Shown here piece by piece: positions 6,099 through 31,392 of a stretch of DNA of 34,132 nt. A model generated the notes under the pieces. That model was not told the DNA's origin, did no database searches, and saw only the letters and a list, made by a program, of their open reading frames with translations. Made by a program: the position numbers and the translations under genes. Numbering within the stretch: the stretch's first letter is position 1; every line of letters starts with the position of its first letter. The DNA is from a virus: IMG/VR virus record IMGVR_UViG_3300036851_000517, positions 1-34,132 of that record. The stretch is one strand, 5' to 3'.

Positions 6099-8953
6099 CC
6101 CCATGTGGTGCTCATTCGCTCGAGCTCGTCGAGCGCCTCCCGCTTCGACTCGGCGACCCGCGGCTGGCCCTCAACGTTCAGGATCCACTGCTGGGTCAGG
6201 TCGCCGTTGTTGACGATGCCGCCGGCTGCGGCCCCAGCGCCGCCGGCCATGCCGTCTAGGCCCGCCAGGGCGGGCGACAGGGGCATCGCCACCTCGGGCA
6301 GCGAGCGCAGAGCGTCGGCCATGGTCTGGCCCACCGCATCGGCTGCGGCATGGGCGTCGCCGAGTGCGGTCAGCATCCCGCCGCTGATGGTCTCGACGAT
6401 GTTGGGGCCCCAGGTCGTGATGCCGCGGAGGGGCGAGCTGGGGTCGCGGGGTTCGGAGTAGATGCGCAGCATGTCGCGCACCTGCTTGGCGACGTTGGCT
6501 GAGGCCCTCGAGGCGAGCAGGCGGTCGGCGCCGTACTGGATGCCCTTGGAGTAGGTATCGACCACGTTCAGGCCCTCGCTGAAGTAGCCGCGGCCGAGCT
6601 TCTCGCGGGCCTCGGCCTGCACCTTGGCAATCGCCACGGCGACCTTCTGGATCCGCGCCCGCTCGGCGCCAGCGGCGTAGGCGGACAGGCCCTTGAAGCC
6701 GGCGGCGTCCAGCTCCTCGGCGAGGTCGAAGCGACTGGTGACCGGCTCCACCACGTCGCGGTTGACGTAGTCGAGCAAGCCCTGCAGGTTGCGGTCGATG
6801 CCCGCCTGCAGCGCCGGATTGACCAGCTCGCCAGCAGCCAGGGCCCCCGGCTCGAGCGACTCGTACTGGCTGATCAGGTTCTCGACCAGCGCGACCGTGT
6901 CGGCTTTGACCTGCGAGTCGGTGCTGCGCAGCCCATCGCGCACCGCCTTGGATGCCAGGACCGCCTCGATGTCGGCGCGGCGCTTCAGGTCGGAATACGG
7001 ATGGGTGACGTTCTCGACGAAGGCGGCGACCTGCTCCTCGAGCTCGCCGGGGCTGCCCACCAGCCCGGTCGCCAGGGCATCGAAGATCTCGCGCGCCTTC
7101 TTGCCCGCCTCCTCCTTGGCCTTGGCGAGCGCCTCGGCGATGGGGTCGACCATGACCTCGGCGGCAGGGCCCACGACGTACTGGCCGTCGACCAGCGTGG
7201 CGGCCAGCTCGCCAGGGACCTCGTCGGCCCGCTCGGTCACGCCGCGCATGGCCCGCTGCGCGCGGCGGTCCCACTCCTCGAAGGACGTGTCGTCGGCCAG
7301 CTCGCCGCCAGCCGCGCGGAGCTCGCCGAGCGCCACCGCCGTGTCACCGCTGGCATCCCGCATGGCCTGGAACGCCGCGTCGACGTCGCCACCGGCGGCC
7401 TCCACGATCTCGGTGAAGCGCTCGATCGACACGCCCCAGCTGCGCAGCGCCTCGTCGATGACGGCGGCCTTGAAGTCGTTGCCGACCACGTCGACCAGTT
7501 TCCTGAAGTCGGTCAGCGCCTTCTTGCCGTGGACCAGCTCATAGAAGAAGTCGCTGGCGGCCTTCTGGAGCTCGCCGACGGCGACCGCGGCGGCGATGGC
7601 GACGCCCACCAGGCCGGCCTTGCCGAGCCCCTTCACCAGCGCCGGGATGCCGCCCGGCTTGGTGAGCAGGCTGAGGCCCTTGAAGAGCAGCCCGACGCCG
7701 GTCGTCAGCTTGCCGACGATCAGCAGCAGCGGCCCGGCCACCGCCATCAGCGCCAGCGCCTGCACGACCAGCTGCTTGGTCCCGTCGTCCAGGGAGCGCC
7801 ACCAGACGCCCAGCGACCGGGCGCCGGCGGCGAGCTGGCGCATGACCTCCACCAGCATGGGCAGCACGTCGGCGCCGAGCTCGATGGCGGTGGCCTGAAT
7901 GTCGGCCATGGCGCGGTCGATCTCGCGCTGCGGGCCCTCGGTCTCCTCGTAGGCGGTCGCCAGCCGGCCGGCGGAGTCGGCGACCTTGCCGAAGACGGCG
8001 TTGAGCTGCTCGGAGTCCAGGGTCAGCAGGGCGGTGACACCGCGCAGGGCGCGGATGTTGCCGAAGACTGCGGCCGCGGCGGTCTCATTTCCGGCGAAGC
8101 GCTCCTCGAGGGTGCGCAGGGTGGCGAGCAGCCCCTGCTCGCGCAGCTGGCGGCGCAGCTGCTCGGAGGACAGGCCCAGCCCCTTCAGCGCCTCCTCGGC
8201 CTGGACGGTCGGCTTCTGCAGGGAGCTGAAGATCTGAATCAGCGAGGTCGCCGACTCCTCCACGCCGACGCCGGTCAGGGTCATGCCGGCCATGGCGGCG
8301 GTGACCTGGTCGAAGCTGACGCCCAGTGCTGCAGCGCCAGGGACCACGTTGCCGATGACCGACGCCAGGCCCGAGGCCTCGGCGGTGCCCTGGCTGACCG
8401 CCTCGGTCAGGATGTCCGCCGCTCGAGCAGCCGTGATGTTCTCGCGGCCATAGGCGTTGATGACACCGCCCAGCACCTGCGCGATGGTCTGCGTCTCGCC
8501 CAGCCCGGCGGCCGCCGCCCGGGCGGAGGTTTCGAGCACCTCCATTGCCTCGTCGGCCTTGAAGCCGGCGGACGCGATGAAGTAGAACGCCTCGACCAGC
8601 TCCTGCGGGCCCTTGCCGACGGCCGGGCCCAGCGCCAGGACCTTCTCGCGGATCCCGTCCAGCTCGTCGGCGGTGACGTCGGTCAGGCCGGAGATCTGGC
8701 GCAGGCTGGTGTCGAAGTCGAGCGCCATCTTGCCGGTGGCGGCGCCGGCGGCCAGGATCGGCAGGGTGACGTTGCGCGACCAGGCCTGCCCGACGCCGGT
8801 CAGGGCGCGGCCCACGTTGGTCAGGCTGGCGCCGGCCTGGCTCGTCCACTTCTCGGCGGCGATGCGCGCGCCCGAGAGCTTGGAATGGAAGCGCGAGTCG
8901 TCGACGTCGAGGTCGAGGACGCTGGTGCCGAGCTTCGCGCCACGTCTAGCCAT
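6095..8953 (-). CDS. Tape-measure protein
   Basis: 952 residues, mostly Ala/Leu/Glu-rich helix, starting MARRGAKLGTSVLDLDVDDS. An N-terminal TP901-type region includes GAATGKMALDFDTSLRQISG and a minimal-unit repeat zone to about residue 330. Two hydrophobic stretches follow near the centre (ALMAVAGPLLLIVGKL, then GLVGVAIAAAVAVGEL), typical of tape-measure membrane segments. The long helical remainder has no lysozyme or peptidase motif that I can see. By the usual 1.5 angstrom per residue this predicts a tail of about 140 nm. GAGGG lies about 10 nt before the ATG. It is flanked by the tail-assembly chaperones and the Dit-like gene. Confidence 0.9.
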   Translation of the reverse strand: MARRGAKLGTSVLDLDVDDSRFHSKLSGARIAAEKWTSQAGASLTNVGRALTGVGQAWSRNVTLPILAAGAATGKMALDFDTSLRQISGLTDVTADELDGIREKVLALGPAVGKGPQELVEAFYFIASAGFKADEAMEVLETSARAAAAGLGETQTIAQVLGGVINAYGRENITAARAADILTEAVSQGTAEASGLASVIGNVVPGAAALGVSFDQVTAAMAGMTLTGVGVEESATSLIQIFSSLQKPTVQAEEALKGLGLSSEQLRRQLREQGLLATLRTLEERFAGNETAAAAVFGNIRALRGVTALLTLDSEQLNAVFGKVADSAGRLATAYEETEGPQREIDRAMADIQATAIELGADVLPMLVEVMRQLAAGARSLGVWWRSLDDGTKQLVVQALALMAVAGPLLLIVGKLTTGVGLLFKGLSLLTKPGGIPALVKGLGKAGLVGVAIAAAVAVGELQKAASDFFYELVHGKKALTDFRKLVDVVGNDFKAAVIDEALRSWGVSIERFTEIVEAAGGDVDAAFQAMRDASGDTAVALGELRAAGGELADDTSFEEWDRRAQRAMRGVTERADEVPGELAATLVDGQYVVGPAAEVMVDPIAEALAKAKEEAGKKAREIFDALATGLVGSPGELEEQVAAFVENVTHPYSDLKRRADIEAVLASKAVRDGLRSTDSQVKADTVALVENLISQYESLEPGALAAGELVNPALQAGIDRNLQGLLDYVNRDVVEPVTSRFDLAEELDAAGFKGLSAYAAGAERARIQKVAVAIAKVQAEAREKLGRGYFSEGLNVVDTYSKGIQYGADRLLASRASANVAKQVRDMLRIYSEPRDPSSPLRGITTWGPNIVETISGGMLTALGDAHAAADAVGQTMADALRSLPEVAMPLSPALAGLDGMAGGAGAAAGGIVNNGDLTQQWILNVEGQPRVAESKREALDELERMSTTWG

Positions 8954-23851: not shown

Positions 23852-24327
23852 TGGCTGGCCTCCCCACGCTCCCAGCGGCGGAGCGGATCGGTCTCCTCCT
23901 CCTCGCCGCCCACGCGGAGCCCGGTGCGCGCCGAAGGGGTCAGGCCCAGCTCGCGGGCGAACTGGCGCATGAGCTCGGCGTTGTCGCGGACGATCTGGTG
24001 CAGGGGATTCTTCACCAGCTCCCCACGACGCGCGCCGCGCACCAGGGGCCCGGACTCCTCGAGCATGCTGGCGGCGTGCTCGTAGCGGGCCACCGCCTCG
24101 CAGTAGGCCCGCAGGGCATCGGCGTCGACAGCCGTCAGGACGCCCGTGCCGCCGAAGTCGCGCATGACCCGGCGCCAGACGATGGCGGCCGCCTTGGACA
24201 GGCTGGCAGGCCGCACGGGGCGGTTCGGACGGGGCTGCGGCTCGGAGGTGTTGACCCGCGACGGCCGACGCTCGCCGTGCAGCAGCTTCAGCTTGGTCGG
24301 CATCTTGGGCGGCCCGCGGCGTCCCAT
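23848..24327 (-). CDS. Terminase small subunit (P27-like)
   Basis: 159 residues beginning MGRRGPPKMPTKLKLLHGER, the basic N-terminal signature of P27-family small terminases, followed by an Arg/Pro-rich stretch, then helices SKAAAIVWRRVMRDFGGTGV, DADALRAYCEAVARYEHAAS and KNPLHQIVRDNAELMRQFAR, and an acidic end (GGEEEETDPLRRW). It recognises phage DNA and hands it to the large subunit. Its ATG shares a base with the methyltransferase stop (TGATG), linking packaging with DNA modification. Confidence 0.85.
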   Translation of the reverse strand: MGRRGPPKMPTKLKLLHGERRPSRVNTSEPQPRPNRPVRPASLSKAAAIVWRRVMRDFGGTGVLTAVDADALRAYCEAVARYEHAASMLEESGPLVRGARRGELVKNPLHQIVRDNAELMRQFARELGLTPSARTGLRVGGEEEETDPLRRWERGEASQ

Positions 24328-25625
24328 CAGGCCGGGCCCTCGAGGCGCTCGGCCTGCTGCCCAGTGAAATGCTCCCAGCGCTCGATGCTGACCTGGGCGT
24401 AGCGCGGGTCGATCTCCAGGGCCAGGGCCCGCCGGCCCAGCTGTTCGGCCGCGATGATGGTGGTGCCCGAGCCGACGAATGGGTCGTAGACCACGTCACC
24501 GGGCCGCGTCGAATACTCGAGCGCGCGAGCGACGAGCTCGACCGGCTTCATGGTCGGATGCTCAGGCGACGCTCCCGGACGCTTGATCTCCCAGACAGTA
24601 TCGAGCCGCCGGCCACCATAGAATGCGTGGCGTTCCCCCTCGTCCCAGCCATACAGCACGGGCTCAAAGTCCTTCTCGCCAAGGTCGCCGTACAGGATCG
24701 GCTCGTGGCGATAGTGGAAGTCCGTCATGCCCATCACGAATCGGTCCTTGACCCAGATGATGGTCTGCCGGAGGCGGAGCCCGGCCTCGCGCAGGGCGAG
24801 CATGAATTCGAGGTGCATCGGCCCTGCCGGGGCCGCGAGGTAGAACGCCCCGCCGGCCCTGAGCGGCGCTAGCCGGCAGGCGGCAGCGACGAGCTCCCGC
24901 GTCTGCTCCGGACGAAGCGAGTCATTCTTCAGCTCCAGGCCATCGGTTCTCCGGTGCCGCGCTACGGCCACGTCGACCGACAGGTTCGTCTGATAGGCGA
25001 CCCCGTAGGGCGGATCCGTCCACAGCAGGTCGACCTGACCCTCGGCGGTGAGGCGGGCGACATCATCGGCGCTGGTGGCATCGCCGATCAGCAGGCGATG
25101 CTCCCCGAGCGCCCAGAGCTCGCCGGTGGCCACGGTCGGCTCCTCGGGCGCCGATGGGACCTCGTCCGGGTCCGTGAGGCCGGCTCGGCGCTCCTCGGGA
25201 CCGGCCAGGGTGCCCAGCAGCCGGCGCAGCGCCTCGTCGTCGACGCGGATCCCGTCGAGCAGCTCGCCGAGCTTCTCCTCGTCGCGGCCGGCCATGGCGC
25301 CCAGCGGGTCGAAGGTGGCGAGCACCAGCGCCTCCTCCTCGAGGGACAGGTCGACGTATAGCACGGGCACGCTCGGATCCTTGCGGGCAACCGCCTCCTC
25401 CACCCGGGCGTGTCCGTCGACCAGGTGGCCGGTGCGCCGGTTGATCACGACCTGCTGTACCCAGCCCACCGTCCCGAGCGCGCCGCGTAGGGCGCCGCGC
25501 TGCTCCTGGCCGTGCGTTCGCCAATTAGCCGGGTTGGCAACGATCGCGGACGGCTCCTCCTCGCCCGAGCCGACGATGCGGTTGCGCCAGGGCGCAGCTC
25601 GAGCTGGCGCTTTGGCCCTGGCCAT
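24327..25625 (-). CDS. ParB-like domain fused to N4/N6 DNA methyltransferase
   Basis: 432 residues. Residues 27-125 are ParB/Srx-like (NPANWRTHGQEQ, QQVVINRRTGHLVDGHARVE), a nucleotide- and DNA-handling fold found ahead of many phage methylases. Residues about 165-425 are an amino-methyltransferase with the motif IV DPPYG first (204-208), target region, HPTMKP (356-361), then SAM-binding motif I DPFVGSGTT (381-389), the beta-class order. It methylates exocyclic adenine or cytosine amines. No restriction enzyme accompanies it except a small HNH protein upstream, so protection of phage DNA from host enzymes or marking of packaging sites is likely. Sequence specificity cannot be read. Confidence 0.9.
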   Translation of the reverse strand: MARAKAPARAAPWRNRIVGSGEEEPSAIVANPANWRTHGQEQRGALRGALGTVGWVQQVVINRRTGHLVDGHARVEEAVARKDPSVPVLYVDLSLEEEALVLATFDPLGAMAGRDEEKLGELLDGIRVDDEALRRLLGTLAGPEERRAGLTDPDEVPSAPEEPTVATGELWALGEHRLLIGDATSADDVARLTAEGQVDLLWTDPPYGVAYQTNLSVDVAVARHRRTDGLELKNDSLRPEQTRELVAAACRLAPLRAGGAFYLAAPAGPMHLEFMLALREAGLRLRQTIIWVKDRFVMGMTDFHYRHEPILYGDLGEKDFEPVLYGWDEGERHAFYGGRRLDTVWEIKRPGASPEHPTMKPVELVARALEYSTRPGDVVYDPFVGSGTTIIAAEQLGRRALALEIDPRYAQVSIERWEHFTGQQAERLEGPA

Positions 25626-26502: not shown

Positions 26503-27513
26503 CTACGGTGCGACGGTGACGACGAAGACGGAGCGGTGGATGTAGAGGACCTGGCCGGCGCCGGTCTTGACCTCAGCGAAGTCGCTGCGGTAGACGCCGT
26601 TGAACAGGAACGCGGTGTTGTTGGGCCAGAGCCGAGCCCCATCGCTGATGCGGTGGATATAGCCGTCGGTCTGGCTGCGGGCGAAGATCGTCCCGCTCAG
26701 GCTGGCCTGGCTGCGGATGTTGCAATTGGGCCCGTAGACCCGGCCGCGGCCACGCCAGGTGCCAGACGGGGCTGCCGGCACGACGTCGACCGCCTTCCAG
26801 AGCTCGAAGACGGCTCCCGACACGGCCATCCACCAGGGCATCCAGCAGTCACCGCTGACGCCCCAGGCGGAGCCCCAGCTCTGTCGCAGGCGGAGGCCTC
26901 GAGCGTCCCACCCGTAGCCGACGATGGCGTGGTTGCTGTTGTACCAGTCGGGATTGGGGAGCACCCCGTTGGAATAGGGGCGCATCCAGGCGTTGTACCA
27001 GTGCATGCCCAGCTGAATCGGGCCCAGCGCGACGATCGCCTGCTTGATCGCGTCGACCGTCTTGGGGATGGCGTAGTAGGCGGCGATCTTGTGGCGGCTC
27101 TGGTTGACCCCACCCGACTCGGGGTAGCCGTAGGCGCGCAGGCGCTCCATGCCAGAGCGCAGCGACGCGCCGGCCGACGTGCCGCCGATGTAGCGGAAGA
27201 AGAGGCCCTCGTCGAGGTTGGGGTAGCCGCCCAGCTCGGGGCGGTCCTGCTGGCCCTTGATGGTGGAGTCGCTGTAGGCCACGCACTGCGGCGTGTCGCC
27301 CTGGTTGAGGACGCCGGGCATGTTCGGCGCGAGGTAGGTTGCCGGCGTGGCAGTGGCCAGCTCCACGCCCAGCGCGGCCAGCAGGTCGGCCGCGTCGTAG
27401 TCGCGGTCGTCGGGTGGCGACGGGATCAGGCCGAAGCCGTGCGGGCCGCTATCGGGCAGGCGCTCGAGGGTGCTGGCGTCGACGTCGGTGCGCTGCTCGT
27501 CGGGCGGCATCAC
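26503..27513 (-). CDS. Papain-like (C1A) cysteine peptidase, probable SH3-like C-terminus
   Basis: 336 residues. The N-terminus has GFGLIPSPPDDRDY, seen in bacterial papain homologues. Active-site elements: NQGDTPQCVAYS, giving oxyanion Gln71 and Cys77 at the canonical 6-residue spacing; NHAIVGYGW with His195; and RQSWGSAWG, where papain has Asn and this protein has Gln211. Residues about 252-336 are strand-rich (RGRVYGPNCNIRSQASLSGT) and resemble an SH3b domain, which often binds cell wall. There is no signal peptide, so export would rely on the holin. It lies between a small Zn-motif gene (ATGA overlap) and the holin, where an endolysin is expected. A cell-wall peptide or surface protein is a possible substrate; structural or host-takeover roles are alternatives. 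Confidence 0.8.
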   Translation of the reverse strand: MMPPDEQRTDVDASTLERLPDSGPHGFGLIPSPPDDRDYDAADLLAALGVELATATPATYLAPNMPGVLNQGDTPQCVAYSDSTIKGQQDRPELGGYPNLDEGLFFRYIGGTSAGASLRSGMERLRAYGYPESGGVNQSRHKIAAYYAIPKTVDAIKQAIVALGPIQLGMHWYNAWMRPYSNGVLPNPDWYNSNHAIVGYGWDARGLRLRQSWGSAWGVSGDCWMPWWMAVSGAVFELWKAVDVVPAAPSGTWRGRGRVYGPNCNIRSQASLSGTIFARSQTDGYIHRISDGARLWPNNTAFLFNGVYRSDFAEVKTGAGQVLYIHRSVFVVTVAP

Positions 27514-28720: not shown

Positions 28721-28898
28721 CGGTGACTACCGCCGTGACTACCTCAGCGACGCGTCACGCACGAAGACGGCGGGCTGTTAACCGCTTGGTCGTAGGTTCG
28801 AATCCTACCGCCGGAGCCACAATCCAGCACGAATGGCCCAGCCCGGCCCAGCCCTCGCCACGCGTCACGGCGATGCGGTGACTCCCTCGGTGACTACC
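28721..28898. other. Phage attachment site attP with symmetric arm repeats
   Basis: The core is the 3' part of a tRNA-Asn gene (28773-28819). On the left are CGGTGACTACC (28721-28731), CCGTGACTACC (28733-28743) and ACGCGTCACG (28750-28759). On the right the order is mirrored: ACGCGTCACG (28860-28869), CGGTGACTCCC (28876-28886) and CGGTGACTACC (28888-28898). Paired repeats are 12 bp apart in both arms. This matches arm-type sites for a lambda-type tyrosine integrase, whose gene ends 1 kb away. Having both arms around one core means the site is unrecombined. The interval 28604-28720 shows no gene. Confidence 0.85.
28773..28819 (+). tRNA. 3' partial tRNA-Asn (GTT), att core, not a functional gene
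   Basis: The sequence has the anticodon loop CTGTTAA (28775-28781, anticodon GTT at 28777-28779), variable region, a perfect T-arm (GTAGG, TTCGAAT, CCTAC) and acceptor strand CGCCGGA-G-CCA. The D-arm and 5' acceptor strand are missing. The 5' side of the anticodon stem is shifted by one base, so host identity probably begins in the anticodon arm. Integration here would restore the host tRNA gene. Confidence 0.85.
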
Positions 28899-29618: not shown

Positions 29619-29872
29619 GATGGCACCTCGCCGATGCGGAAGCCGTCGACCGCGACGTCCTCCGCATAGCTGACGGGGTAGCCGAAGAGGCGATGCTGAA
29701 TGAAGTCATCACCAGTCGCGCCGCCCCTGACTGGCGAGGTGGGATGCAGGACGATCTCCGGCAGATCCCGCCATGACCCCGGGACGAGGGCCAGCCCGCG
29801 TTCGGTGAGCGCAGCGGCGAGGCGCGCCAGGATCGCGTCGCGGTCTACCAGCGCATCGCGGTGCCGGCTCAT
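29615..29872 (-). CDS. Unidentified 85-residue protein after integrase
   Basis: Starts MSRHRDALVDRDAILARLAA at ATG 29872, overlapping the integrase stop as ATGA, so it is coupled to the integrase. A helical N-terminus precedes a strand-like half (LVPGSWRDLPEIVLHPTSPV, then LFGYPVSYAEDVAVDGFRIG). An upstream in-frame opening to 29911 is ignored because of the overlap rule. No family recognised. Confidence 0.6.
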   Translation of the reverse strand: MSRHRDALVDRDAILARLAAALTERGLALVPGSWRDLPEIVLHPTSPVRGGATGDDFIQHRLFGYPVSYAEDVAVDGFRIGEVPS

Positions 29873-31002
29873 CCGACCAGCTCCTGCACCGCGGCGATCG
29901 CTGGCGCCCACTCGTCGGTGGCGCCGATGTAGTGCCCGTGGGTCGTTCGCGTCCGGGTGTGGCCCAGCAGGTCGGCCACCCGGCGGTCGGGGATGCCAGC
30001 CTCGAAGAGTCGGCTGGCGAAGGTGGTGCGCAGGTTCTTGAACGGGAGCCGCGGGATCCCCGCCGCCTCGAGCAGGTCGTAGAAGTGGTGCGTCAGCCAG
30101 GACCCGGAGAGTGCCCCGCCCCGGAGGTTGGGGAAGACGGGCCCGGTGGCGGTCGGCACGAAGCCCTCGGCGATCAGGCGCTCGCGGTGGGCGGCCAGCG
30201 CGTCAACCAGGGCCGGCGCCAGCGGCACGACCCGGCGCGAGCGGTCGGTCTTCAGCTCCTCGCGGACATAGCGGCCAGCCCTCGGTCTGGGTCCGGGGAC
30301 GTAGCGCACGCCGCGGCGAACGTGGAGCAGCCCGCGCTCGAGGTCGACGTCCTCCCACGCCAGGCCGAGCAGCTCGCCCATGCGCAGCCCGGTGCCGACG
30401 GCCACCGCGAAGAGCGCCTCAAGGCGATCACCGCGGGTGGCCTCGAGCAGGCGTCGCACCTCGGCGGCAGTGAGCGAGCGCGGCTCGATGGCGGGCACCC
30501 GGGGCGCGTCGACGTACTCGCGGCTGGCGACGTTGCGGCTCAGCAACCCACCGCGCACGGCAGCGCCCAGCGCCCGGCGCAGGACCGCGTGCACGTTGCG
30601 CACACTCTTGGGCGACAGGCGCTCGGCCAGGACCCCGAGCAGGTGCTCGACGTGGGCCGGCGTCAGCTGCGACAGGCGGACATCCCCGATCAGCGGCGCG
30701 ATGTGGAGCTCGATGGCGACCTCGTAGCCGTGGCGGGTGGTCGGCCGCAGATTGCGCACGTCACGAACCCACGCGGCGAGGAAGCCCGAAAGCGTCGCCC
30801 GGCTCGGCGACAGCCCGCGATCGCGCTCCGCGCGCAGCTCGACGAGTGCGCGGCGGGCGTCGCGGTAGCTCGTCCGCGTCCGCTTGCGATAGCGCCGCGC
30901 GGTCCGGGGGCCGATCGAGAGCTGGGCGATCCACTTGCCGTCCGCCCGCTGGTAGATCGAGCCCTCGCCCGGGGGCCGCCGACGGTCCGTCACGCTGCGC
31001 AT
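29869..31002 (-). CDS. int: Tyrosine integrase
   Basis: 377 residues from ATG 31002 (MRSVTDRRRPPGEGSIYQRA); TTG 31020 and GTG 30993 are other possible starts. Residues 15-60 are the arm-binding domain (GSIYQRADGKWIAQL), about 70-160 the SAM-like core-binding domain, and the rest catalytic: Arg207 in TGLRMGE, Lys251 in ELKTDRS, Arg325 in KNLRTTFAS, His348 in LLGHTR and nucleophile Tyr358 in HGHYIG. The first His of the HXXR box is Lys322. It should integrate the phage at a host tRNA-Asn gene using the attP 1 kb downstream. It overlaps the HTH gene before it and the next gene (ATGA), so it is part of the leftward early operon and needs no promoter of its own. Confidence 0.95.
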   Translation of the reverse strand: MRSVTDRRRPPGEGSIYQRADGKWIAQLSIGPRTARRYRKRTRTSYRDARRALVELRAERDRGLSPSRATLSGFLAAWVRDVRNLRPTTRHGYEVAIELHIAPLIGDVRLSQLTPAHVEHLLGVLAERLSPKSVRNVHAVLRRALGAAVRGGLLSRNVASREYVDAPRVPAIEPRSLTAAEVRRLLEATRGDRLEALFAVAVGTGLRMGELLGLAWEDVDLERGLLHVRRGVRYVPGPRPRAGRYVREELKTDRSRRVVPLAPALVDALAAHRERLIAEGFVPTATGPVFPNLRGGALSGSWLTHHFYDLLEAAGIPRLPFKNLRTTFASRLFEAGIPDRRVADLLGHTRTRTTHGHYIGATDEWAPAIAAVQELVG

Positions 31003-31162
31003 TGTGCAGCCAAGCGTCAACGGCGTCCGGGCTGAAGAGCCATTGGCCGCGCAGCTTGCGCGCCGGGATCTGGCCGGCCTGGGCCGCCAGGCGCAGCGTC
31101 TCGGGGTGGATGCCGAGCTGGGCGGCCATCTCGGCGGTGGTGAAGGCGCGGCGCTCGCTCAT
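30761..31162 (-). CDS. Excisionase-like helix-turn-helix protein, long overlap with integrase
   Basis: From ATG 31162 (ATGA with the previous stop). Residues 1-53 are a compact winged HTH: FTTAEMAAQLGIHPETLRLA, then wing ARKLRGQWLFSPDAVDAWL. That is the whole of an excisionase domain. The frame then continues for a further 80 residues, antiphase to the integrase, as a basic Arg/Pro/Ala-rich tail to 30761, for 133 residues in total. The tail looks like a shadow of integrase coding. Either the protein has a disordered tail, or the stop was lost, or the ribosome changes frame to yield an HTH-integrase fusion. A recombination directionality factor role is inferred from position. Confidence 0.7.
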   Translation of the reverse strand: MSERRAFTTAEMAAQLGIHPETLRLAAQAGQIPARKLRGQWLFSPDAVDAWLHNAQRDGPSAAPGRGLDLPAGGRQVDRPALDRPPDRAALSQADADELPRRPPRTRRAARGARSRAVAEPGDAFGLPRRVGS

Positions 31163-31392
31163 GGTTCCAGCAGCTCCAGATCCTCGGCGGTGCGCTGAGC
31201 CATGGCGGCGATCTGCACGAGCTCGTCGAGCATGCTCTGACGCGAGCGGGCTGCTCGCTTCCGCCGGCACTCATCCCAGAGCTCGTCGACCTCCTCGAGG
31301 ATGACGGCGTAGCCCTCGTGGGCGCTGTTGATCGGGTCGTGCCGCTCCCGGGCCAGCAGCAGCTCGCGGGCGACCAGCTGGGCGAACGTCAT
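31159..31392 (-). CDS. MazG-like small phage protein
   Basis: 77 residues from ATG 31392: MTFAQLVARELLLARERHDP, then INSAHEGYAVILEEVDELWD and MLDELVQIAAMAQRTAEDLE. The paired acidic helices (EEVDELWDE, then DELVQ) resemble the metal-binding helices of MazG/all-alpha NTP pyrophosphohydrolases, reduced to a minimum. If active it would hydrolyse nucleotides and adjust the pool. It overlaps the 34-residue gene before and the HTH gene after by ATGA. A much longer frame upstream is not used. Confidence 0.7.
   Translation of the reverse strand: MTFAQLVARELLLARERHDPINSAHEGYAVILEEVDELWDECRRKRAARSRQSMLDELVQIAAMAQRTAEDLELLEP

Follow-up and report, generated by a model that had tools for sequence, protein, structure and literature searches.

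In phage lambda, arm-type sites flank the attachment core, the integrase is heterobivalent with an N-terminal arm domain, and the excisionase gene is adjacent. The lambda core is short and lies outside tRNA genes, the arm sites are unequal in number, and host factors (IHF) are known. Mycobacteriophages L5, Giles and those of Cluster K (CrimD, Pixie) carry pairs of arm-type repeats flanking a common core in a tRNA or tmRNA gene; the pairs of L5 and Giles are direct, and those of CrimD are inverted relative to each other (PMC3203893). For the anticodon-centred islands of Islander class A, the tRNA gene is restored, a fragment of it is displaced, and tandem arrays occur (PMC4383910).

We analyzed a full IMG/VR virus record, 34,132 bases long and classed as linear; this whole stretch is referred to as the window, and all coordinates are those of the window. 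We are highly confident that it holds the intact tRNA-Asn attP of a temperate, siphovirus-like Chloroflexota phage, at which the integrase would bind arms and core, the host tRNA would be rebuilt, and excision would be directed by an HTH_17 protein. The site occupies a non-coding gap with the neighbouring genes on both sides reading leftward, and its features are as follows.

28723-28743, plus strand: left (P) arm, two arm-type sites GTGACTACC at 28723-28731 and 28735-28743, pitch 12
28750-28759, no strand assigned: left copy of the inner 10-mer repeat ACGCGTCACG, candidate excisionase or accessory site, unconserved
28773-28819, plus strand: attP core, 47 nt, the 3′ part of tRNA-Asn(GTT)
28860-28869, no strand assigned: right copy of ACGCGTCACG, candidate accessory site, unconserved
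28878-28898, plus strand: right (P′) arm, GTGACTCCC at 28878-28886 and GTGACTACC at 28890-28898, pitch 12
29869-31002, minus strand: lambda-type tyrosine integrase, 377 aa from the ATG at 31002 (the longest ORF starts at 31020)
30761-31162, minus strand: excisionase (RDF)-like HTH_17 protein (Pfam HTH_17, 1e-11), helix-turn-helix part at about 30992-31144

The core, GGCTGTTAACCGCTTGGTCGTAGGTTCGAATCCTACCGCCGGAGCCA, starts 2 nt 5′ of the anticodon loop and ends with CCA. On each flank of it lies a tandem pair of the arm word with consensus GTGACTNCC at a 12-nt pitch, and the order of the repeats is symmetric (D D I, core, I D D). The site thus has the composition of a lambda-type attP, with a host-identical core, arms on both sides that are distinct from it, an adjacent integrase and an RDF-like gene nearby. 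An earlier, sequence-only reading had described six mirrored repeats with 12-bp spacing around the last 45 or so bases of a tRNA-Asn (GTT) gene. The repeat order, the outer four repeats, the pitch of 12 on both sides and the target tRNA were confirmed; the orientation was not, since the outer repeats are direct, in one orientation on both flanks, and the tRNA block measures 47 nt, two longer than had been thought. With its direct pairs the window attP resembles those of L5 and Giles, unlike CrimD with its inverted pairs, and it shares with the mycobacteriophage attPs the arm pairs around a tRNA-located core and a lambda-type tyrosine integrase. The mycobacteriophages differ in their Mycobacterium hosts, other arm motifs and other tRNA targets, and L5 and Pixie have more sites. 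Lambda, which is similar in its arms around a core, its heterobivalent integrase (the arm domain being predicted from the fold in our case) and its adjacent excisionase gene (excisionase-like here), differs in its short, non-tRNA core and its unequal numbers of arm sites.

The hexamer GTGACT occurs eight times in the 34-kb window (both strands), and four of these occurrences are at the site. Two tandem GTGACT pairs were observed, vs. approximately 0.005 expected from the word frequency in the window. A motif-free test required one 9-mer to be tandemly repeated on both flanks, with at most one mismatch and a spacing of 11-13; of 3000 flank pairs generated at random by a first-order Markov model, none qualified. 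The inner ACGCGTCACG pair behaves otherwise: it is absent from the other attP sites examined, and its match is near chance (about 0.05, an estimate). Consequently, where all six repeats had been taken for integrase arm sites, we retain the outer four; the inner GTCACG repeats, unsupported by the relatives, were rejected as a third arm site. Between arm and core the window also carries AGCACGAA or its complement TTCGTGCT, in exact or slightly varied form, at 28760-28766 and 28827-28834. This motif recurs in several attP and attR sites, at 24454 of the related contig G008 and in the left arms of L149, L185 and L174, and it may be a further protein site, e.g., for the excisionase or an accessory protein.

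The other genes of the window (terminase, portal, protease, capsid, tape measure) are those of a siphovirus-type temperate phage. Two genes are unusual in their own right: 24327-25625, apparently a fused gene, encodes a protein matching ParB-like partition and DNA methyltransferase families, and 26503-27513, near the lysis-side genes, encodes a papain-family cysteine peptidase (Pfam 4e-7), an unusual phage cargo. The integrase matches Pfam Phage_integrase (2.5e-24) and Phage_int_SAM_3 (3.4e-9) and the integrase family of PHROG (1e-60). Its catalytic residues are present (R207, K251, K322-x-x-R325, H348, Y358), with the H of the H-x-x-R box replaced by K in this phage group. No Pfam arm-domain match was obtained for this protein. 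Its AlphaFold model (mean pLDDT 82.9) begins with a three-strand sheet followed by a helix, which is the plan of arm-binding domains, and we infer that the N-terminus is such a domain. The top solved-structure matches of the model were Tn1549 Int and full-length lambda Int, and Tn1549 Int was also the best sequence match among solved structures. The conjugative transposons Tn1549 and Tn916 select their targets loosely, whereas a single tRNA gene is targeted here. As a separate observation, the integrase L115 of the closest relative (G008) carries 27 inserted residues within its catalytic domain (columns 244-270 of alignment A1) that are missing in the other nine sequences.

The HTH_17 reading frame overlaps the start of the integrase gene, running 242 nt into it in another frame. 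A protein of this kind is kept upstream of int in L003, L033, L005 and L123, with the close HTH/int arrangement retained, and from its family and position it is probably the excisionase. The ORF at 31017-31274 was rejected for this role, as it is in the wrong frame and the HTH_17 protein is encoded in another.

To locate the target, one genome per species from 84,980 species was scanned for exact matches to the 45-nt core pattern CTGTTAACC...GAGCCA. The complete tRNA-Asn with the same ending that the sequence-only reading had predicted for bacterial genomes was found at 27 loci, each match lying inside a complete 75-nt tRNA-Asn(GTT) gene. Such a match was expected to name the host, and it points, very probably, to a Chloroflexota bacterium: 26 of the loci are titled Chloroflexi, and the 27th (L019, titled ‘Steroidobacteraceae’) is flanked by a gene whose syntenic counterpart at the Chloroflexi locus L017 is 73% identical, so that it is probably a misbinned contig. 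The GC content of the target loci (66-72%) fits that of the phage (64-74%). Four of the 27 core-bearing genomes, including both that have arm remnants, belong to one Chloroflexota class, probably Limnocylindria, which is also the host class of the integrated relatives described below. The presumed hosts are little-known soil bacteria of this phylum. One further tRNA-Asn locus (L004), which has a different anticodon arm and matched only a shorter 32-nt pattern, was set aside.

Searches by core, integrase and arm pattern yielded five further phage contigs with a complete attP: G005 (39.3 kb), G006 (29.7 kb), G008 (40.7 kb), L171 and L174. In G008 the integrase is 63% identical to that of the window and the structural genes are colinear with it. 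All six attP sites, the window's included, have the tRNA-Asn core with a GTGACT pair on each flank at a pitch of 11-12, and GTGACT is common to 24 of 24 arm sites; loss of the arm repeats from related phages, named beforehand as evidence to the contrary, was seen in none of the six. The core is invariant except for GAATCC/GAGTCC, a variant that is present in host tRNA genes as well. The minimal block common to the six sites and the host genes, GGCTGTTAA...CCA, extends from the anticodon stem-loop to the tRNA 3′ end, as in Islander class A; the class A cases come from sequenced whole genomes, whereas the gene here is the tRNA-Asn of Chloroflexota MAGs. Megablast of the last 8 kb of the window against approximately 50,700 phage records gave no matches. 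Arm-pair matches outside a tRNA-Asn core in two viral contigs (L187, L188) were inspected and judged to be chance. In a more distant phage, L002, this tRNA 3′ end occurs around position 8774 together with other paired repeats, TGACACTCA, also at pitch 12; with an integrase of about 30% identity it was set aside from the comparison, and it suggests that the pitch is kept when integrase and arm word change together.

Since tRNA fragments are common in phage genomes, we considered whether the site is left over from an integration that has since decayed, or whether a tRNA fragment lies by chance near unrelated GTGACT repeats. The integrase and probable excisionase genes next to the site are intact, the architecture is identical in six phages, the arms are split in bacterial genomes (see below), and random flanks did not reproduce them (0/3000); we give this explanation almost no weight.

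For an intact attP, a lambda-type course of events can be proposed. The N-terminal domain of the integrase would bind the four GTGACTNCC arm sites, two per side, an assignment that we infer from the repeats, and its core-binding and catalytic domains would bind the tRNA-like core. Recombination would then take place between this core and the matching 3′ region of the host tRNA-Asn(GTT) gene; judging by the left edge of the shared block 2 bases before the anticodon loop, the crossover most likely falls at that loop. With the entire 3′ part, CCA included, coming from the phage core, the tRNA would be rebuilt at the integrase-side junction, attL, consisting of tRNA and right arm. The displaced tRNA fragment would mark the other end, with left arm and core forming attR. 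For excision, the directing factor is probably the HTH_17 protein, whose gene immediately precedes int.

Integrated forms were sought in 177 genomes of one Chloroflexota class. The attL arrangement, a complete tRNA-Asn followed by the right arm only, was present in 10 of them, with the GTGACT pair 65-69 nt downstream where measured; a reversed-pattern control gave no matches in the same 177 genomes. Three of the 10 have an integrase relative (36-41% identity) directly adjoining. The attR arrangement, left arm and core without the tRNA 5′ half, was found in three genomes (G072, G166 and G164). The arms are therefore split in relatives sharing core and arm motif, as is typical of lambda-type elements once integrated, and the model in which the core supplies the tRNA 3′ end and the arms separate is borne out in these relatives. 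The integrases of the integrated examples are about 36-43% identical to that of the window, and several of these examples resemble small or decaying islands, not phages. In the 177 genomes the window capsid protein had no matches, and the large terminase had one distant, partial match only (46%). A phage beside the tRNA with its arms divided between attL and attR, as anticipated, was hence found as related elements (integrase identity of about 40%), while the window phage's own prophage was not.

The rebuilt tRNAs bear on tRNA-dependent lysogeny, in which the host tRNA is lost upon integration and replaced by a tRNA gene that the phage carries. Such phages likewise have a tyrosine integrase and a tRNA-located core flanked by arm pairs (PMC10865867). 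They are characterized by a short, non-rebuilding core and a phage-borne tRNA of the same isotype; the 47-nt core found here, running through CCA, rebuilds the tRNA, the integrated relatives have a complete tRNA-Asn, and a tRNA search of the 34-kb window found no complete tRNA gene (an Rfam search of the window gave zero matches). This mode of lysogeny is contradicted by the rebuilt tRNAs observed, and we consider it highly improbable for the window phage.

A single G166 contig shows, in succession, the tRNA, a right arm, 5.8 kb, a left arm with core, 7.5 kb, and another left arm with core, the latter two sites lying 5.8 kb and 13.3 kb beyond the tRNA, indicative of two elements in tandem. Along the tRNA orientation of this contig (G166:C4, L150-L152), the tRNA-Asn is at 499-573 and the cores are at 6348 and 13851. 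ORFs in the region of these small islands (5.8 and 7.5 kb) code for a berberine-type FAD oxidase, a Crp-type regulator, a BNR-repeat protein and a further tyrosine integrase. The core and arm word of the phages are also used by non-phage islands. Tandem elements at this very tRNA raise the question of whether the window site could be a junction between two tandem integrated copies instead of the attP of a free phage. Yet the window comprises 34 kb without host DNA, complete tRNA or a second core copy, the internal junction in G166 has the left arm pair only, and the same arrangement is found on six contigs, for which tandem lysogens would need to be the rule. We judge a tandem junction unlikely. 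The sequence-only statement that the DNA was not integrated when sequenced stands as the simplest reading, with the qualification that a tandem lysogen would likewise join both arms to one core; we take the sequenced molecule to be free phage DNA. The sequences themselves show the identity of the core, the arms, the gene content, the conservation among relatives and the splitting of the arms in integrated relatives. As the core occurs in host tRNA genes, paired arms in relatives and split arms in genomes, an intact attP and a Chloroflexota host are very probable.

The arms of the six phages lie at differing distances from the core. The inner arm is 34, 34, 35, 48, 57 and 57 nt away on the left and 47, 48, 57, 58, 59 and 69 nt on the right, and the integrated elements add 34 and 57 nt (left) and 65, 68 and 69 nt (right). 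On the right side, no further arm pairs were found at closer range in the viral contigs, nor farther from the core in the genomes. A common period of approximately 11 fits the phage distances better than any of 4000 random sets, and with unique distances alone it beats all but 32 of 4000. Given that these sequences are related to one another and that the period itself was fitted, the steps of approximately 11 nt are suggestive only; moving an arm by complete 12-bp repeat units would give a similar picture. Tentatively, with slightly less than even confidence, we propose that one integration code (tRNA-Asn core and GTGACT) is common to the phages and islands of the class and that arm pairs shift by whole helical turns, in which case arm position would be constrained by the face of the DNA and not by a fixed distance.

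The window site is an attP of a well-known kind, ordinary but unusually well documented. Through it an uncultured virus is tied to a bacterial phylum on mechanistic grounds and not by similarity scores, and bacteria without genetic tools gain a ready set of integrase, attP and attB. The six attP, about ten attL and several attR sites form a comparative set for arm spacing rules, with which a helical-phase rule is testable; if true, such a DNA-face rule would be usable for finding attP sites from sequence alone.
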